From a virus, in the IMG/VR virus record IMGVR_UViG_3300048587_000211, positions 1 to 41,823 of that record: 41,823 nucleotides of DNA. One strand, given 5' to 3'. A program made the translations under genes and the position numbers. Every line of letters starts with the position of its first letter. Position 1 is the stretch's first letter. Under the pieces are notes generated by a model. It was not told the DNA's origin and did not search any database. It was given only the letters and a program-made list of their open reading frames with translations. Below are positions 794 to 41,744 of this stretch, piece after piece.

Positions 794-1603
794 ATGTTCC
801 AGATCCCCAAGTTCACCCAGGCGCGCGTCGCCAGCATCACCAACCGCGTCGAGAAGCACGGCGACGACGAAAAGCCCGCCGTGTCGCTGTCGCTGGAGAT
901 CGAGGCCGAGAACACCATCCTCGACCAGATCGACCCGAAGATCCGCGAGGCGCTGTTCAAGCCGAAGCCGGACGAGGAGCCCGAGTTGCCGGGCGTCGAA
1001 CAGAGCACGCCCGTCCTGCGCTGCAACAGCATCGACCGCGTGACGCTGCCGACCAAGCACGAAGGCTGGACGCTGGGGATCGACGCAGGTATCGGTGGCG
1101 ATGCCGAGCCGATGAAGTTCGGCTCCGTCAAGGCCGACAAATTCAGCGTGGAGCCAAAGCAAGGCGGCAGCATCGTGCTGCGGCTGCGCGTCGGCACCAG
1201 CGACGTTGATGCCGAGCGCCTGGGATGGCTCGGCATGCACAACGGCGAGGACATCTGGATCACGTTGTTGCCGCCAGAGCCCAAGCCCGAGGCCATCGAC
1301 GGCACCGTCGGCCACCCGGGCGCGCAGCCGGGGTCCGACGCGGGCGAGCTGTTTGCGGCCGAGCACGGCGGGCCGGATGATGAGCCGAGCGAGGGCGGCG
1401 ACCCTGATGCCAGCGGCCAAGCGTCGAAGGATGCGCTCGATGCCAGCGGGCACAACCCGTTTGGCGGCGGTGGTGGACCGGTTTCGGGTACTGTCGGTGG
1501 CCCAGCAACCACCACCTCCACCCGCACCGCCCGAGGCCGCGAGGCCACGCGGAAGGCGCTCGCCGAAGGTGCCGCGGCGCATGCGGCTGCGGGGGCAGCG
1601 TGA
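794..1603 (+). CDS. Conserved-looking early protein, 269 aa, disordered C-terminus
   Basis: A good Shine-Dalgarno (AAGGAG, 780-785) precedes the ATG. Residues 1-160 look like a folded beta-rich domain with regularly spaced hydrophobic strands (SLSLEIEAEN, SIVLRLRVG, IWITLLPPEP). The last 100 residues are Gly/Ala/Asp-rich and probably disordered, including a GGGGGP run. A compact beta domain plus acidic flexible tail beside exonuclease-type recombination genes would suit a ssDNA-binding or recombination accessory protein, but this is inference and I do not recognise the family. Confidence 0.7.
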   Translation: MFQIPKFTQARVASITNRVEKHGDDEKPAVSLSLEIEAENTILDQIDPKIREALFKPKPDEEPELPGVEQSTPVLRCNSIDRVTLPTKHEGWTLGIDAGIGGDAEPMKFGSVKADKFSVEPKQGGSIVLRLRVGTSDVDAERLGWLGMHNGEDIWITLLPPEPKPEAIDGTVGHPGAQPGSDAGELFAAEHGGPDDEPSEGGDPDASGQASKDALDASGHNPFGGGGGPVSGTVGGPATTTSTRTARGREATRKALAEGAAAHAAAGAA

Positions 1604-4277: not shown

Positions 4278-4664
4278 ATGCTGACAGCCGCAGCCGCCGC
4301 GACATTGCTGGGCCTGAGCGCCCGCAAGGTCTACGCCATGGCGGCTGAGGGTATCCTGCCGTGCTACCGTTTCGGCTCAGCCGTCCGTTTCGACCCCGCA
4401 GACCTGGAGGCGTACAGGGCATCATGCCGATCTACAGGCACAAGCCATCCGGCTGCTGGATGTTCGAATTCTCCCGCCGCGTTGATGGCCGGCGTGTTCG
4501 AAAGCGCCAGCTTCTCCCGGCAGGGTGGACGCGCGCCCAAGCCGACGCCTACGACCGCGCGCAAAGCGCGGCCCTGTACGCGGTCGCGTCCGGCACCTCA
4601 CGGCCCCGCCATCGTATCGACGAGGCTGTCACTCGTTACACCCGCGAGCGAGCCCCCGCGCTGA
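4278..4664 (+). CDS. xis: Excisionase-like winged HTH protein
   Basis: Residues 1-50 are a clear MerR/AlpA-type helix-turn-helix of the excisionase family (AAATLLGLSARKVYAMAAEG, then FGSAVRFDPADLEAYRAS). Such proteins bind att sites and steer the tyrosine integrase towards excision. The adjoining integrase gene supports this. The frame stays open to 4664, giving 128 aa, but residues beyond about 52 look like a shadow of the integrase frame. Either the protein carries a long uninformative tail or it is longer than typical for lack of an earlier stop. It overlaps the integrase start by 241 bp. Confidence 0.7.
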   Translation: MLTAAAAATLLGLSARKVYAMAAEGILPCYRFGSAVRFDPADLEAYRASCRSTGTSHPAAGCSNSPAALMAGVFESASFSRQGGRAPKPTPTTARKARPCTRSRPAPHGPAIVSTRLSLVTPASEPPR

Positions 4665-5386
4665 AGCACGGCGAGAACGTGAAGCGGGAACTCGAAGGCA
4701 TGCGCGACTGGTGGGCCGGCCGCGCCATCGATGACCTGGCCGTCGTGTGCCAGGAGTACGCCGAGGATCAGCATGGCGCGCTGGCGCCGGCCACCATCAA
4801 GAACCGCATTGCCTACCTGCGCGCGGCCTGCCGTTACGCATGGAAGCGGCACGGCATGGCCGAGTCAGACCCCGGCGCCCGCGTGCAGTCGCCGACCGTG
4901 CGCAACGCCCGCGACATCGTGGTCAGCCGGGCGGACATGCTCACGATAGCCCGCGCGTGCCAGCACAGGCCCACCAGGGCGCTTATCCGGGTGCTCTGGT
5001 ACTCAGGACTTCGGCTAGGCGAAGCGCGCATCGCTGTGCGCGTTCCTGGAGCCTTCGTGATCCCGGCCGTGGACTCGAAGAACGACTCGCCGCGCATCGT
5101 GCCGGTGCACGCGCGCATCCGGTCGGCGGCAGCGCTGCCGATGCCCGACCGCGGGACGCTGTACTACTGGTGGGAGAAGGCGCGCGACGCGGCCGGCTTC
5201 GGGCATGTGCACCTGCACGATCTGCGGCACGCCGCTGCAACCGAGATGGTCAGTGCCGGGATCGACCTCGGCACGGTGGCCGCCGTGCTGGGACACAAGA
5301 CCATGCAGACCACGAAGCGATACAGCCATCACGCGGTGTCGCGCCTGGCCGAAGCCGTGGGGACGATTGGGAAACGCAGGGGCTAA
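4424..5386 (+). CDS. int: Tyrosine recombinase (phage integrase), 320 aa
   Basis: Catalyses site-specific recombination between attP and the bacterial attachment site. Numbered from the ATG at 4424, the catalytic set is visible: R197 (SGLRLGEA), K219 (VDSKNDSPR), H265 and R268 (HLHDLRHA), H291 (LGHKTM) and nucleophile Y300 (KRYSHH). Residues 1-60 form the arm-type binding region and about 65-150 the core-binding SAM-like domain. Length matches small phage integrases. The frame is open upstream to 4361, but GGAGG at 4406-4410 and the sequence MPIYRHKPSGCW, a common integrase N-terminus, favour 4424. attP lies 77 bp downstream. Confidence 0.95.
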   Translation: MPIYRHKPSGCWMFEFSRRVDGRRVRKRQLLPAGWTRAQADAYDRAQSAALYAVASGTSRPRHRIDEAVTRYTRERAPALKHGENVKRELEGMRDWWAGRAIDDLAVVCQEYAEDQHGALAPATIKNRIAYLRAACRYAWKRHGMAESDPGARVQSPTVRNARDIVVSRADMLTIARACQHRPTRALIRVLWYSGLRLGEARIAVRVPGAFVIPAVDSKNDSPRIVPVHARIRSAAALPMPDRGTLYYWWEKARDAAGFGHVHLHDLRHAAATEMVSAGIDLGTVAAVLGHKTMQTTKRYSHHAVSRLAEAVGTIGKRRG

Positions 5387-36007: not shown

Positions 36008-36354
36008 AGCGCGCTCCTGTCGGTTCTGCCATCCGCCCAGCGGCGGTGCATGGTCAAGCTGTCGCCGCGCTCGATGAACACGGCCAGCATGTGCGGGTTG
36101 ACCTCGGCCGCCAGCTTCGCCACGCGGCGCAGCCGGGCCTCGTTGCCGCTGCGGTCGCCGAGCTGCACGCTCAGCCCCACCAGCGGGCGGAAGTCGATGT
36201 CGCTCAGGCTCTCGGCCGCGCCGATCTCGGCATGCACGGCACCGGTCGACGTGCACCACGCCGGCAGCGGATGGCCGGGCACCAGGTCGAGCATGACGTG
36301 CGTCGGCTTGGCGCCCTTGCGGCGCAGCGTGGCGATGATGTCGAGGCCGCTCAC
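36004..36354 (-). CDS. Hypothetical replication-operon protein, 116 aa
   Basis: GTG at 36354 overlaps the DUF1376 stop and the gene ends overlapping the helicase start. Sequence features include LDIIATLRRKGAKPTHVMLD, PLVGLSVQLGDRSGNEARLR and VNPHMLAVFIERGDSLT. No known motif is recognised. Tight coupling between initiator-like and helicase genes suggests a replication accessory role, which is inference. Confidence 0.6.
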   Translation of the reverse strand: MSGLDIIATLRRKGAKPTHVMLDLVPGHPLPAWCTSTGAVHAEIGAAESLSDIDFRPLVGLSVQLGDRSGNEARLRRVAKLAAEVNPHMLAVFIERGDSLTMHRRWADGRTDRSAL

Positions 36355-37076
36355 CCTTGCCCCCTGCGGAACAGGTCGGCCAGGTCGGTGACGGCCGGCT
36401 GCCCCTGCTTCGGCGGCGCGGACTCTGCCGCCTTGCGGGCCCAGTTGCGCCATGTCGCCTGCCAGTCGGCCTTGCGGCCCTTCGCCCCAGGCTGGGAGGC
36501 CCAGTAGTCGCGGAACTTCGCCAGCTCGGTCTGGGCCCTTCCGTTGCGCAGTCCCTGCTGCTCGGCAAAGGCCATGCCGCCGGCTCCCGGCTCCCAGCCA
36601 TCCGGCAAGCGAAGCCCCCGAGCCGTTTCGGCCGCGCCAGCGGCGGGGGCCCCCGAAGGGGGGGTGTCTTTGTATTTCTGGAGTCTGGAGTCTGGAGTCT
36701 GGCTAGGGTTACGGTTCGCAACCGAATCGGTTTTGTCGTCAGAAACCGAATCGGTTTTCTTTGGCCTTCCGCCTCGCTTTCCAAGTTCCTGATTCACGGA
36801 CCGCTGGTGCGAGGCTTTGGCTATCTCTTCCTCGGCCCGTCGGTTCAGGAATGACACGCCGTCGGTGATGAAGAACTCGGCCAGCACAGCGTCGACGGCA
36901 GCCTTCTCGACGCCGCTGCGAGCTCGGCACACGCGGTAGGCCTCAGCGCTGCTGGGAATGGGCTTCTCGGTCGTGTAGTAGCGGTCGAGCAGCAGCGTGT
37001 ATGCGCCGTGCTCAAGCATGGTCAGGTGCCCGGCGTCCTTGGCGTAGTCGCCGAGATGGCGCTTGTAGAAGTTCAA
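36351..37076 (-). CDS. DUF1376/YdaU-like replication protein, 241 aa
   Basis: The N-terminus MNFYKRHLGDYAKDAGHLTM with EHGAYTLLLDRYY matches the DUF1376 (YdaU) family, phage proteins that take the place of an initiator or helicase partner and have a winged-helix fold. Residues 95-150 are a low-complexity linker containing two KTDSV units. The C-terminus (RDYWASQPGAKGRKADWQAT) is the usual DnaT/primosome-like tail. The gene contains repeats that could form an origin. Confidence 0.85.
   Translation of the reverse strand: MNFYKRHLGDYAKDAGHLTMLEHGAYTLLLDRYYTTEKPIPSSAEAYRVCRARSGVEKAAVDAVLAEFFITDGVSFLNRRAEEEIAKASHQRSVNQELGKRGGRPKKTDSVSDDKTDSVANRNPSQTPDSRLQKYKDTPPSGAPAAGAAETARGLRLPDGWEPGAGGMAFAEQQGLRNGRAQTELAKFRDYWASQPGAKGRKADWQATWRNWARKAAESAPPKQGQPAVTDLADLFRRGQG
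36650..36755. repeat. Hairpin, 7-bp tandem repeats and twin palindromes: candidate origin
   Basis: Inside the DUF1376 gene: CCCCC-GAA-GGGGG (36650-36662); TCTGGAG three times in tandem plus a partial copy (36677-36704); and the perfect palindrome ACCGAATCGGT twice (36721-36731 and 36745-36755, 24 bp apart). The flanks are locally AT-richer than the surroundings. Lambda keeps iterons inside its initiator gene, so an origin is a reasonable guess. Confidence 0.5.
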
Positions 37077-37246
37077 GGTGCAAAGCGCTCCGCGTTCTCA
37101 GATCCAGGACGACCATCCAGCCAGGACAAGTGCTCGTCCCACAGCAGGCACACGCGGCATGGCTTGCCGTCGCGCATGCAGGTGCAGGGGTCGAGTAGAT
37201 CCACCTCAGCCGGCACCATCGGCGGCGGGAGCGTCGGCTCGCTCAT
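37073..37246 (-). CDS. Small Cys-rich protein, 57 aa
   Basis: ATG at 37246 overlaps the preceding stop and the gene ends overlapping the DUF1376 start. MSEPTLPPPMVPAEVDLLDP is followed by CTCMRDGKPCRVCLLWD, with four Cys in a CxC...CxxC arrangement able to bind zinc. It is small, soluble and coupled to the replication genes. Function unknown. Confidence 0.55.
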   Translation of the reverse strand: MSEPTLPPPMVPAEVDLLDPCTCMRDGKPCRVCLLWDEHLSWLDGRPGSENAERFAP

Positions 37247-37644
37247 GCGGCCCTTCCCTGCAGCAGCTGCCGCATCAGCTTGTTCTCCGCCTCGGCCTGC
37301 GCGGCCCGGGCTTCTGCCGCTTCTGCGCGGCGCTCGGCCTCGCTCTTGATCATGGTGAGCGTGCAGCCGACCTGATACGCGGTCCACTCTGGCAGGATCG
37401 TGTTGCCGACCAGCTCGCAGAACTTGGCAACCAGGTCGCCCTGCAGCGTTGCCCTGCCCTTCTTGATGTTCGAGAAGTAGCCGGCGTCGATGTCGATCGC
37501 AAGGTAAATCTCTTTGTCCTCAAGCCCGGACACGCTGCAGGCCAGCGTGAACGCGCCGGCATAGGTCTTCTGCGCGCGGATCGTTTCGATGGGCACCACG
37601 CTGCGCGCCGGCTCACGAACGAGGGGCAGCTCAACCTGGCTCAT
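37243..37644 (-). CDS. HTH-like phage regulator, first gene of replication operon, 133 aa
   Basis: ATG at 37644 gives MSQVELPLVREPARSV. Residues 40-90 read CSVSGLEDKEIYLAIDIDAG then YFSNIKKGRATLQGDLVAKF, a Cro/C1-type helix-turn-helix pattern I recall in phage regulators in the cII position. The C-terminal 50 residues form an Ala/Glu coiled coil (SEAERRAEAAEARAAQAE), likely for oligomerisation. A CII-like role is possible but not demonstrated. Confidence 0.65.
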   Translation of the reverse strand: MSQVELPLVREPARSVVPIETIRAQKTYAGAFTLACSVSGLEDKEIYLAIDIDAGYFSNIKKGRATLQGDLVAKFCELVGNTILPEWTAYQVGCTLTMIKSEAERRAEAAEARAAQAEAENKLMRQLLQGRAA

Positions 37645-38225
37645 GCTTCTTGAACCGGGTTGAAGACCCAATTCGGCGACAGTGCTGGCCATGGACGACA
37701 ACACCCCGAATCAGGAAAGCGCCGACGCCAGCCGGCGCAATTTGGACTGGGCCCGGCTTGCGCTGCTGCGCATGCTGGTGGTGCTGGCCGAGGGCATCAG
37801 GCTGAAGCGCCCGATCCCGCCGGAGCCGTGGGGAGACGGCGACACGCGGCCCGGTGTGCGGCGGGGCGACCAATGAGCGCTCAGGCCCCAGCGCCGTGCC
37901 GCAGGTCCCAAGACTTCAACCTTGTTCGCCATACCGTGCACAGGGCGAACGCACGCAGGGTTGCGAAGCGTGGCGGGGCAGTTCTCGCCCCCCGCGTCCA
38001 TAGGCAGCGTCATCATTGCGGGGCTCCGCTCAGGATCACGCGCGGCCGCGCAGCCGGGCACTGCCGCCCATGCTTTGCAGCCACGCGATGCGGGCCTGAG
38101 CTTCGACGCCCCTTCGGGGGTGGTATTGGAAATGCCCGAGGCCGAAGCCCCGGGCGAAGGGCTCGCGGCGCTGGGGAAGCGCCCCCGGATAGGCCGGGGC
38201 CAGTGCGAACCTGGAGACAAGCTGT
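37645..38225 (-). other. Long leader between cro-like gene and replication operon
   Basis: Transcripts from the promoter at 38484-38512 would cross these 581 bp before the next minus-strand gene. I see no convincing minus-strand gene, although one frame stays open. Hairpins are present: CCCC-TTC-GGGG near 38110, and GTTCGCC/GGCGAAC at 37924-37930 and 37944-37950 with a 13-nt loop. It may hold an antitermination or regulatory RNA element. A small plus-strand gene (37691-37876) lies within it. Confidence 0.35.
37691..37876 (+). CDS. Hypothetical protein, 61 aa, antisense to the leader
   Basis: ATG at 37691 is divergent from the minus-strand regulator. The peptide has a polar N-terminus (MDDNTPNQESADASRRNLDW), one amphipathic helix (ARLALLRMLVVLAEGIRL) and a charged tail. 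Third codon positions are GC-rich as in real genes here. No ribosome site is obvious and no family is recognised, so coding is only moderately supported. Confidence 0.4.
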   Translation: MDDNTPNQESADASRRNLDWARLALLRMLVVLAEGIRLKRPIPPEPWGDGDTRPGVRRGDQ

Positions 38226-38477
38226 TCACGCTGCGGCCTTCTGGTCGGCGGGGTCGGCCTTCGACGGCGCGGGCGCGGAGAACTCTGCCGCCATGTCCTC
38301 AAGCGTCAACTTCTCATCGACTTGCGACAGCCTCACCATCAACGCAATGGAAGGCTTCCTGCCATTCCAGCGATTGGCGATCTGCCACAGATACCCGGCA
38401 TCGCTGATGCCTGCCGCCTTTGCCAGCGCAAGCCGCTGCGGCTGCGTCATCTGCTCGTACCGTTCCTTGAGTCGCAT
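38226..38477 (-). CDS. cro: Cro-like repressor, 83 aa
   Basis: Occupies the Cro position: first gene on the rightward-type transcript leading to replication genes, divergent from the CI-position repressor. Residues 12-40 hold the HTH (QPQRLALAKAAGISDAGYLW, with the recognition helix and NRWNGRKPS loop), then a dimerisation-like segment. The start at 38477 is chosen because it coincides with the predicted transcription start and no ribosome site precedes it, suggesting a leaderless message. Longer upstream starts would cross the operators. Confidence 0.75.
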   Translation of the reverse strand: MRLKERYEQMTQPQRLALAKAAGISDAGYLWQIANRWNGRKPSIALMVRLSQVDEKLTLEDMAAEFSAPAPSKADPADQKAAA

Positions 38478-38483
38478 GCCAAT

Positions 38484-38512
38484 ACGATAGCAGGCTGCTA
38501 AGGTGTTTGCAA
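38484..38512 (-). promoter_or_regulatory. P_R-like promoter with operator in spacer
   Basis: On the minus strand -35 TTGCAA (38512-38507), 17-bp spacer and -10 TATCGT (38489-38484) are well placed. The spacer holds the operator CTTAGCAGCCTGCTA (38502-38488, minus strand), whose core TAGCAG-G-CTGCTA is a perfect palindrome. A bound repressor would block the promoter. The predicted start is about 38477, the first base of the cro-like ATG. Confidence 0.75.
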
Positions 38513-38529
38513 GCACTGTCGAATCGAAA

Positions 38530-38544
38530 CTTAGCAGCGGGTTT
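38530..38544 (+). promoter_or_regulatory. Second, degenerate operator near the repressor gene
   Basis: CTTAGCAGCGGGTTT matches the left half of the operator consensus (CTTAGC then AGC) but not the right half. It lies between P_R and the repressor start, where a lambda-like P_RM would be controlled. Probably a weak site used for autoregulation. Confidence 0.45.
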
Positions 38545-38577
38545 ACCCGTCCCGTTTTTGAGGGGGTAGCGTGCGGC

Positions 38578-39000
38578 ATGGCCACCAATCAGGAAACTAG
38601 GCGCGCTAACCTAGCCCTGCTCCTAGAAGAGTGCGCTCAGGAGCTAGGCGATACACGCGGAGCGGCGGCCGAACTGGCAAGGCGCACGGGGGTTGCAGCC
38701 CCCATGATTTCGCAGACGCTCAACCAGAAGCCGCATCAGGGAGGCGCAGCACGCAAGATCGGCGACAAGACAGCGCGCAGGCTTGAACGTGGAATGAACA
38801 AAGACCCTGGATGGCTCGATATAGATCGCGGACCGGCGCTCCTCAGCGTCTCGGATCACACCATGCTGGCGACGTACCGGAAGCTGACCATTGACCAGCA
38901 GGAGGTGCTGCTAACGATGGCGGCAGAGTTCGCCAGGCTCAATCACGGCGGCGGCAGCGATCCAGAGCCGCAGCACCCACCGCCGATCATCAGGCAATAA
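38578..39000 (+). CDS. CI-position repressor, HTH protein without peptidase domain, 140 aa
   Basis: Maintains lysogeny by binding the operators at P_R and P_L (inference from position). ATG at 38578 gives MATNQETRRANLALLLEECA; the upstream extension crosses the operator region and is rejected. HTH at about 27-50 (TRGAAAELARRTGVAAPMIS). The C-terminus (LATYRKLTIDQQEVLLTMAA) is a helical dimerisation-like segment. No LexA-type Ser/Lys peptidase domain is present, so induction cannot be by RecA-stimulated self-cleavage. Confidence 0.75.
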   Translation: MATNQETRRANLALLLEECAQELGDTRGAAAELARRTGVAAPMISQTLNQKPHQGGAARKIGDKTARRLERGMNKDPGWLDIDRGPALLSVSDHTMLATYRKLTIDQQEVLLTMAAEFARLNHGGGSDPEPQHPPPIIRQ

Positions 39001-39414
39001 GCCCCCCAAGGGTGACAGCAGACCTGTCACGCCTCGCCCGGCCTGCATGGCCCAGCGCACCCATGGGGCAGCGATTCCGTCCGCGCGCCTGCTGGTCGTC
39101 ACCCCTGTACAGGCACACATCCGCGGTCCCTCGCTGAAAGGCCGCACGGCGCGCACCGGGGAGAACGGCGGCCGGTCTTTGTCTGGTGCCCCGATGCAAG
39201 GGCATGCCCGCTTGCGCCGACCCCGCGCGCCAGTCTGCGGGAGAAACGACAAAGCCCTCAAGGCCATGCAGTTCCGTGTGTGACGCCACGGCCCCTTTCG
39301 GGCTGGACTGCATGAGCTTGAGGGCTCAACTGCATTTTCCGCGACGGCGTCACCCATCGACAATGGTGTGATTGTATCCAGTACGGGATTCCCCTGTGCA
39401 AAATTCTCGAAAAA
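39001..39414 (+). ncRNA. Structured region between repressor and P_L, C4/Ash-like
   Basis: No convincing gene in 414 bp. A short open frame (39047-39283, 78 codons) encodes IRGPSLKGRTARTGENGG and related residues that recall the Ash/Icd-like leader ORFs associated with C4-type immunity RNAs in P1, P4 and other prophages. Structures: GTGACAG-CAGAC-CTGTCAC (39012-39030), the long stem 39253-39272/39307-39326, and a crossing stem 39280-39287/39346-39353. It lies downstream of and co-directional with the repressor gene. Identity as an immunity RNA is inference. Confidence 0.45.
39253..39326 (+). repeat. 20-bp imperfect inverted repeat (18/20)
   Basis: Left arm 39253-39272 (AGCCCTCAAG, then GCCATGCAGT) and right arm 39307-39326 (ACTGCATGAG, then CTTGAGGGCT) pair at 18 of 20 positions around a 34-nt loop that holds a small GCCC-CTTTC-GGGC hairpin. 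A third copy of the ACTGCAT element at 39329-39335 can compete for the left arm. Confidence 0.7.
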
Positions 39415-39458
39415 CTTAGCCGGCTGCTATTGCATAGAACTTAGCACGCTGCTACAGT
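39415..39458 (+). promoter_or_regulatory. P_L-like promoter with two operators
   Basis: Operator C is CTTAGCCGGCTGCTA (39415-39429). Immediately after it -35 TTGCAT (39430-39435), a 17-bp spacer and -10 TACAGT (39453-39458) form a promoter whose spacer contains operator D, CTTAGCACGCTGCTA (39440-39454). This is the same geometry as the P_R promoter. The start would be near 39465, about 40 nt before the first early gene. This promoter should drive the exonuclease-to-integrase operon. Confidence 0.75.
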
Positions 39459-39504: not shown

Positions 39505-39672
39505 ATGAGCATCGAACAAGCACTCGCCGCGAAGCTGATCGCAAAGATGCTGCGCGAAGGCTGGGGCAAGCAGGCCGCGATCGCCGCAGCCGCCAAGCAT
39601 GTGCGCAGCCAGGGTTTCGGCGCCGAGCACTCCGATCGTGTAGCGCGCGAGATGTTCGATCTGGTCGCCTAA
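39505..39672 (+). CDS. First early-operon protein, 55 aa
   Basis: A purine-rich site (GAGAGGGGAAG) precedes the ATG. The peptide MSIEQALAAKLIAKMLREGW continues with KQAAIAAAAKHVRSQGFGAE, two amphipathic helices with alternating Ala and basic residues and no membrane span. It is the first gene after the P_L-like promoter, the slot often used by antiterminators or host-takeover proteins. No family recognised. Confidence 0.55.
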   Translation: MSIEQALAAKLIAKMLREGWGKQAAIAAAAKHVRSQGFGAEHSDRVAREMFDLVA

Positions 39673-40798: not shown

Positions 40799-40890
40799 GC
40801 CGCGGCCCGTCCACCGAGATGCTGATAGCGCTGGCGCCGGCCGTCGCCTGCATCGTCATTCCGCTGCTGCTGCACATGGTGCTGCGATGA
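40795..40890 (+). CDS. Membrane micropeptide, 31 aa
   Basis: ATG at 40795 overlaps the previous stop (ATGA) and its own stop overlaps the exonuclease ATG (ATGA). The peptide MSRGPSTEMLIALAPAVACI continues with VIPLLLHMVLR, a single hydrophobic helix. The double overlap is the main evidence that it is translated. Function unknown. Confidence 0.5.
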   Translation: MSRGPSTEMLIALAPAVACIVIPLLLHMVLR

Positions 40891-41744
40891 ACGCGCCCGA
40901 CCGCATCACGCTGGGCCTGCACCCCGACATGCCTTCGGAGCAGTACCACCGCATCGCCGCGATGTCGGCCGGCGGCCTGAAGCGCATGCGCCAGAGCCCG
41001 GCGCACTTCTACGGCAAGCAGCTGGACCCGAACCGGCCGCAGGGCGACAACGAGCCGACGCCCGCGATGAAGGCTGGCACGCTGTTTCACGTGGCGCTGT
41101 TCGAGCCCGAGGCAATCGCCGAGCGCTACATCGTCAAGCCGGACGGCATGAGCTTCGCCAGCAAGGACGGCAAGGCGTGGCGCGACGCGCTGCCGGCCGG
41201 GATCGAAGTCACTGATGCCGACGCACTGGCCAAGGCGCGCGCCCAGGCCCGCAACGTTCGCGCAAGCCCCGACATCGCCGCACTGATGAGCGACGGCATG
41301 GCCGAGGCATCCGCATTTTGGATCGACGAGCAGACCGGCGAGCTGTGCAAGTGCCGGCCCGATTGGTGCAGCCCGACCGGCGACGGCGTGGTGCTGATCG
41401 ACGGCAAGAGCTGCCAGGACGCATCGCCGGAAGGCTTCGCGCGCACCGCGTGGAACATGGGCTACCTGCACACCGCGGCTTGGTACATCGACGGCTACCA
41501 AGCCGCGACCGGCCAGCGCGTGCACGGCTACGTGTTCGCGGCCGTCGAGCACGAATGGCCGCACGTGGCCGCGCCGTACATGGTGCCCGACGACGTGCTC
41601 GACCTGGCGCGCGCCGACAACCGGCGGCTGCTGAACCTGTACGCCGAGTGCCGGCGCACCGGCAACTGGCCCGGCTACTCGGCCGGCATTTCCCTGATCA
41701 CCCTGCCCGTTTGGGCGCAACGCGCTCTAGAAGGATCGTCATGA
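40887..41744 (+). CDS. PD-(D/E)XK exonuclease, RecE/DUF3799-like, 285 aa
   Basis: The likely 5'-3' exonuclease of a phage recombination pair. Family features in order: YHRIAAMSAGGLKRMRQSPA, GTLFHVALFEPE (His68), Asp159 in CRPDWC, and the catalytic IDGKSC (Asp172, Lys174). The C-terminus HTAAWYIDGYQAATGQRV and FAAVEHEWPHV matches the DUF3799 pattern. It follows the small early genes and is probably succeeded, just outside the window, by an annealing protein. Confidence 0.85.
   Translation: MNAPDRITLGLHPDMPSEQYHRIAAMSAGGLKRMRQSPAHFYGKQLDPNRPQGDNEPTPAMKAGTLFHVALFEPEAIAERYIVKPDGMSFASKDGKAWRDALPAGIEVTDADALAKARAQARNVRASPDIAALMSDGMAEASAFWIDEQTGELCKCRPDWCSPTGDGVVLIDGKSCQDASPEGFARTAWNMGYLHTAAWYIDGYQAATGQRVHGYVFAAVEHEWPHVAAPYMVPDDVLDLARADNRRLLNLYAECRRTGNWPGYSAGISLITLPVWAQRALEGSS

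Follow-up and report, generated by a model that had tools for sequence, protein, structure and literature searches.

A candidate lambda-type immunity region with matched operators in the spacers of two early promoters

Gene order and regulator genes

The window, meaning the whole 41,823-base viral record that was analysed, contains two divergent regulator genes flanked by early operons. The genes relevant to the locus are the following:

36351 to 37076, minus strand: replication/primosomal protein with DUF1376 and DnaT domains, downstream of PR
37243 to 37704, minus strand: CII-position gene, assigned from position alone (no family match); its coding sequence may begin downstream of 37704
38229 to 38477, minus strand: Cro-position gene, 83 amino acids
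38578 to 39000, plus strand: CI-position repressor gene, 140 amino acids (phrog_12107 'transcriptional repressor', 1.6e-9)
39505 to 39672, plus strand: first small ORF of the PL operon, preceded by a ribosome-binding stretch rich in G and A
40887 to 41744, plus strand: exonuclease VIII-like gene, part of the PL operon

The repressor gene sits between two outward-reading early promoters, here termed PR-like and PL-like. The Cro-position gene, the CII-position gene and the replication genes are found on the PR side, together with genes for a DnaB-like helicase and a RusA-like resolvase. This order is lambda-like, and the CI-position gene indeed lies between the promoters, as was claimed in a preliminary description of this DNA. 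Downstream of PL lie the recombination and integration genes, as the integrase (4361 to 5386) falls on the PL side once the record ends are joined. Such a join is suggested by L005, where a homologue of window positions 832 to 1327 comes after the exonuclease homologue. The remainder of the record consists of structural genes (tail, tape measure, major head, portal and terminase).

The 140-residue repressor gave no Pfam match, and an S24 peptidase domain was not found in it. Judged by its sequence, it would not belong to the lambda CI type (S24/LexA-type, self-cleaving), which is defined by a C-terminal S24 domain. By contrast, the repressor of another surveyed locus, L041, does carry an S24 domain. 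The AlphaFold model of the 140-residue repressor was too poor for use (pLDDT 42). For the 83-residue Cro-position protein no significant family match was obtained; its low-confidence model (pLDDT 60) displays a weak, non-significant resemblance to the YdaS and P22 c2 folds. No relatives of either regulator were found in viral contigs or isolated phages, and none of the repressor in genomes. A plasmid collection yielded partial repressor matches only.

The ATG of the Cro-position gene is located 6 nt past the PR −10, and a leaderless mRNA is therefore predicted. This gap (38477-38489, minus strand) is also 6 nt in L065 (5059-5071), and it measures 7 nt in L024 (3655-3668). In L033, L035 and L062, Cro-position or HTH-like genes likewise start 6 to 7 nt past a promoter −10. 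Leaderless cro mRNAs are thus predicted in several phages.

A strong hairpin with 20-nt arms is present between the repressor gene and OL (39253-39326; −50 kcal/mol for 39240-39345, z about −5). It may represent a terminator or a small RNA; no Rfam match was obtained in the switch region, this hairpin included.

Operators and early promoters

The promoters and their operator copies are arranged as follows:

38484 to 38512, minus strand: PR-like promoter TTGCAA-17-TATCGT, 8 of 12 consensus positions, reading towards the Cro-position gene
38488 to 38502, minus strand: OR1-like operator CTTAGCAGCCTGCTA, whose TA end is shared with the PR −10 (its first two bases)
38530 to 38544, minus strand: candidate half-site (CTTAGCAGC on the plus strand), 44 bp from OR1; a possible but doubtful OR3
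39415 to 39429, plus strand: OL2-like operator CTTAGCCGGCTGCTA, immediately 5' of the PL −35
39430 to 39458, plus strand: PL-like promoter TTGCAT-17-TACAGT, 7 of 12 consensus positions, reading into the early operon
39440 to 39454, plus strand: OL1-like operator CTTAGCACGCTGCTA, within the PL spacer and 25 bp from OL2

Three exact copies of the 15-mer CTTAGCNNSCTGCTA occur in the whole record, namely the OR1-, OL2- and OL1-like sites. The coordinates given earlier for three sites with one 15-bp consensus were correct, and these are its sole exact matches. Each 17-bp spacer of the PR-like and PL-like promoters is filled by one copy, and the third copy is located directly 5' of the PL-like promoter. 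The same operator is consequently found at both early promoters, where it overlaps promoter elements. Hexamers and spacers are as first described, and the equal spacing reported for the two promoters holds as well, the operator end overlapping the −10 in both. The 13-bp operator cores TAGCNNSCTGCTA are palindromic at 12/13, 10/13 and 10/13 positions, and the full operators score 21.7 to 22.5 bits.

The candidate half-site, previously put forward as a fourth half-match, is present, but it scores 11.1 bits and lies near chance level, since roughly 7% of shuffled 1.5-kb regions contain an exact 9-mer half-site by chance. It was therefore left out of the established sites, so that OR holds one full operator and a doubtful half, versus two full operators at OL. 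A small terminator-like hairpin (38537-38550), in the presumed repressor leader, overlaps this half-site. No sigma-70-like promoter that could serve as PRM for the repressor was recognised within OR by the promoter scan.

The operator repeats alone do not single out the locus. Exact 15-mer matches were absent from shuffled windows (mean 0.0 in 200), for a consensus that was chosen post hoc. In the shuffled control, about 6.9 of 68 windows hold a loose palindromic family, and by generic repeat-family counts the switch region could not be told from the coding background. Neither the number of repeats nor the presence of loose palindromic families is by itself remarkable in this G+C-rich genome. 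The two promoters are also weak by consensus: both fall below the cut-off of the standard promoter scan (9 consensus matches), which leaves them unlisted. For these reasons (post hoc consensus, sub-threshold promoters, unremarkable loose repeat counts) an unbiased scan was carried out, in which all promoter-like sites were taken without reference to the operator consensus and their spacers were compared.

Among the 11 promoter-like sites in the 41.8 kb, PR and PL form the only pair with matched spacers (12/13). A 12/13 pair occurred in none of 300 Markov control sequences, and an 11/13 pair in two. The combination of operator copies with matched promoter spacers is unusual. Applied to lambda as a positive control, the scan recovered OR1/OL1 at PR/PL. 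P22 did not reach the threshold, which shows that the sensitivity of the scan is limited.

Relatives with other operators

A relative suited to comparison is L004 (IMG/VR contig 3300048589_000533), which has the PL operon in common with the window at 89-94% DNA identity (about 93% in the largest block). Over the switch this similarity is absent, and the L004 repressor and Cro are unrelated to those of the window. Its operator also differs (ACTAGCGCCCCTAGT, family AATACTAGCGCCCCTA). The L004 promoters, TTGACA-17-TATTAT and TTGACG-17-TAGTAT, are better consensus matches and are the only promoter-like hits in the switch stretch. In both, the operator is situated in the 17-bp spacer and extends two bases into the −10. 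Four good sites are present, two at OR and two at OL, and the OL pair is 25 bp apart, as in the window.

In a survey of replication-gene loci, L024, L041 and L065 likewise display the divergent matched-spacer layout, each with an operator of its own. At the loose threshold used, three divergent matched pairs were observed in 75 loci, versus 0.6 expected. When the promoters were aligned on the −10, the operator ended on the first −10 bases in all ten. L004 (2400-3223) and L065 (4483-5319) encode homologous short repressors (48%) and Cro proteins (61%) in otherwise different phages, and their operators are similar, non-identical. Similar operators accompanying homologous regulators would be expected if repressor and Cro read them. 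No matched promoter pair was found in two Bordetella phages with a related exonuclease, nor in a Neisseria region.

Searches of viral and genome collections for the paired-operator pattern returned mainly tandem or simple repeats, plus L008. In this AT-rich viral contig a TAGCAGGTTGCTA operator pair (2615-2653), similar to that of the window, is spaced 26 bp apart, with the second copy just upstream of a TATAAT. The L008 regulators are unrelated to those of the window. Apart from the L008 promoter, the searches of other public records did not show the window's operator pair at a recognisable switch of this type, in agreement with a private specificity. Co-occurrence of operator and repressor in related phages had been suggested earlier as a check; the searches gave no second record with both. 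The distinct immunity specificity that had been proposed is supported, as far as sequence comparison goes: in relatives the operator changes with the regulators while the geometry is kept.

Proposed mechanism and alternatives

The region is very probably the immunity region of a temperate lambdoid phage, in which the 140-residue repressor would block PR and PL at the TAGCNNSCTGCTA operators. The lambda-style OR/OL switch of the preliminary description is supported by the gene order and by the operator-in-spacer geometry. The operators, their locations, the order of the genes and a geometry kept in heteroimmune relatives can be read directly from sequence; the repressor (38578-39000) is the most likely candidate for the protein that binds. 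Bound at 38488-38502, between the PR −35 and −10, it would exclude RNA polymerase, thereby turning off cro, the CII-position gene and replication. Repressor at 39440-39454 and 39415-39429 would block PL, and with it the recombination/integration operon. The paired OL sites may bind repressor cooperatively. The Cro-like 83-residue protein probably opposes the repressor at at least one of the same sites.

The lambda repressor and Cro share all operator sites. This precedent, and the near-chance level of the half-site, argue against a different division of labour, in which the repressor binds all full sites and the Cro-like protein is confined to some other or weak site, for instance 38530-38544. 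The location of the extra half-site between OR1 and the repressor gene would suit the latter scheme, which is considered possible, if somewhat doubtful. It has a counterpart in PY54 and phiKO2, where Cro binds only OR3 (PMC4488713, PMC4997575), and use of all sites by Cro should consequently not be assumed for the window.

Binding of the repeats by another factor, either a host regulator or a phage activator such as the CII-position protein, appears very unlikely. A CII-position gene is present and repressor binding at the repeats is a prediction, but the sites lie inside −35/−10 spacers, where a bound protein would exclude polymerase, and the window and L004 differ in operator as well as in repressor and Cro genes, even though the adjoining operon is conserved between them. 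An accidental resemblance in a genome rich in G+C, for which the ordinary loose repeat and palindrome counts might speak, is extremely improbable given the Markov controls and the relatives that share this anatomy with other operators.

Control of both early promoters by the 140-residue repressor remains the preferred reading. Possibly, the switch is a pared-down version of lambda's, having a single full operator on the right, two on the left, a short uncleavable repressor and a leaderless cro, in phages that swap immunity cassettes while the geometry stays fixed. The region provides a testable operator for an uncultivated temperate phage. The results further suggest that matched promoter spacers alone may be enough to identify immunity operators in the raw sequences of heteroimmune phages. 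Such operator finding would help to predict superinfection-immunity groups for metagenomic phages.

Comparison with known systems

Because relatives have the same layout with different operators, the switch belongs to a familiar kind. As in lambda (NC_001416), PR and PL are divergent, the repressor gene lies between them, and an operator in the PR/PL spacer reaches the −10. Neighbouring operators are 24 bp apart in lambda versus 25 bp at the window's OL. The operator sequences differ, and lambda has three OR and three OL sites versus one full OR and two OL in the window. Unlike lambda, the window has a short repressor in which no S24 domain was detected, its cro is predicted to be leaderless, and no rex genes were identified at that position.

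A second parallel is found in E. coli O157:H7 CP-933P, where a repressor faces a Cro of the YdaS type and the divergent promoters carry overlapping palindromic operators (PMC8630535). The resemblance of the 83-residue protein to YdaS is weak. In CP-933P the leaderless gene is the repressor gene paaR2 and the region includes a toxin-antitoxin pair, whereas in the window cro is the gene predicted to be leaderless.

The immB regions of the telomere phages N15, phiKO2 and PY54 resemble the window in having fewer operators than lambda, with three OR and two OL in N15 and phiKO2 (PMC4488713, PMC4997575). The repressor CB of N15 and phiKO2 also lacks self-cleavage residues (PMC4997575), and a leaderless cro mRNA was shown by experiment in PY54 (PMC4488713). 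In these phages OL controls the plasmid replication gene repA, whereas the OL of the window precedes an exonuclease/integrase operon.
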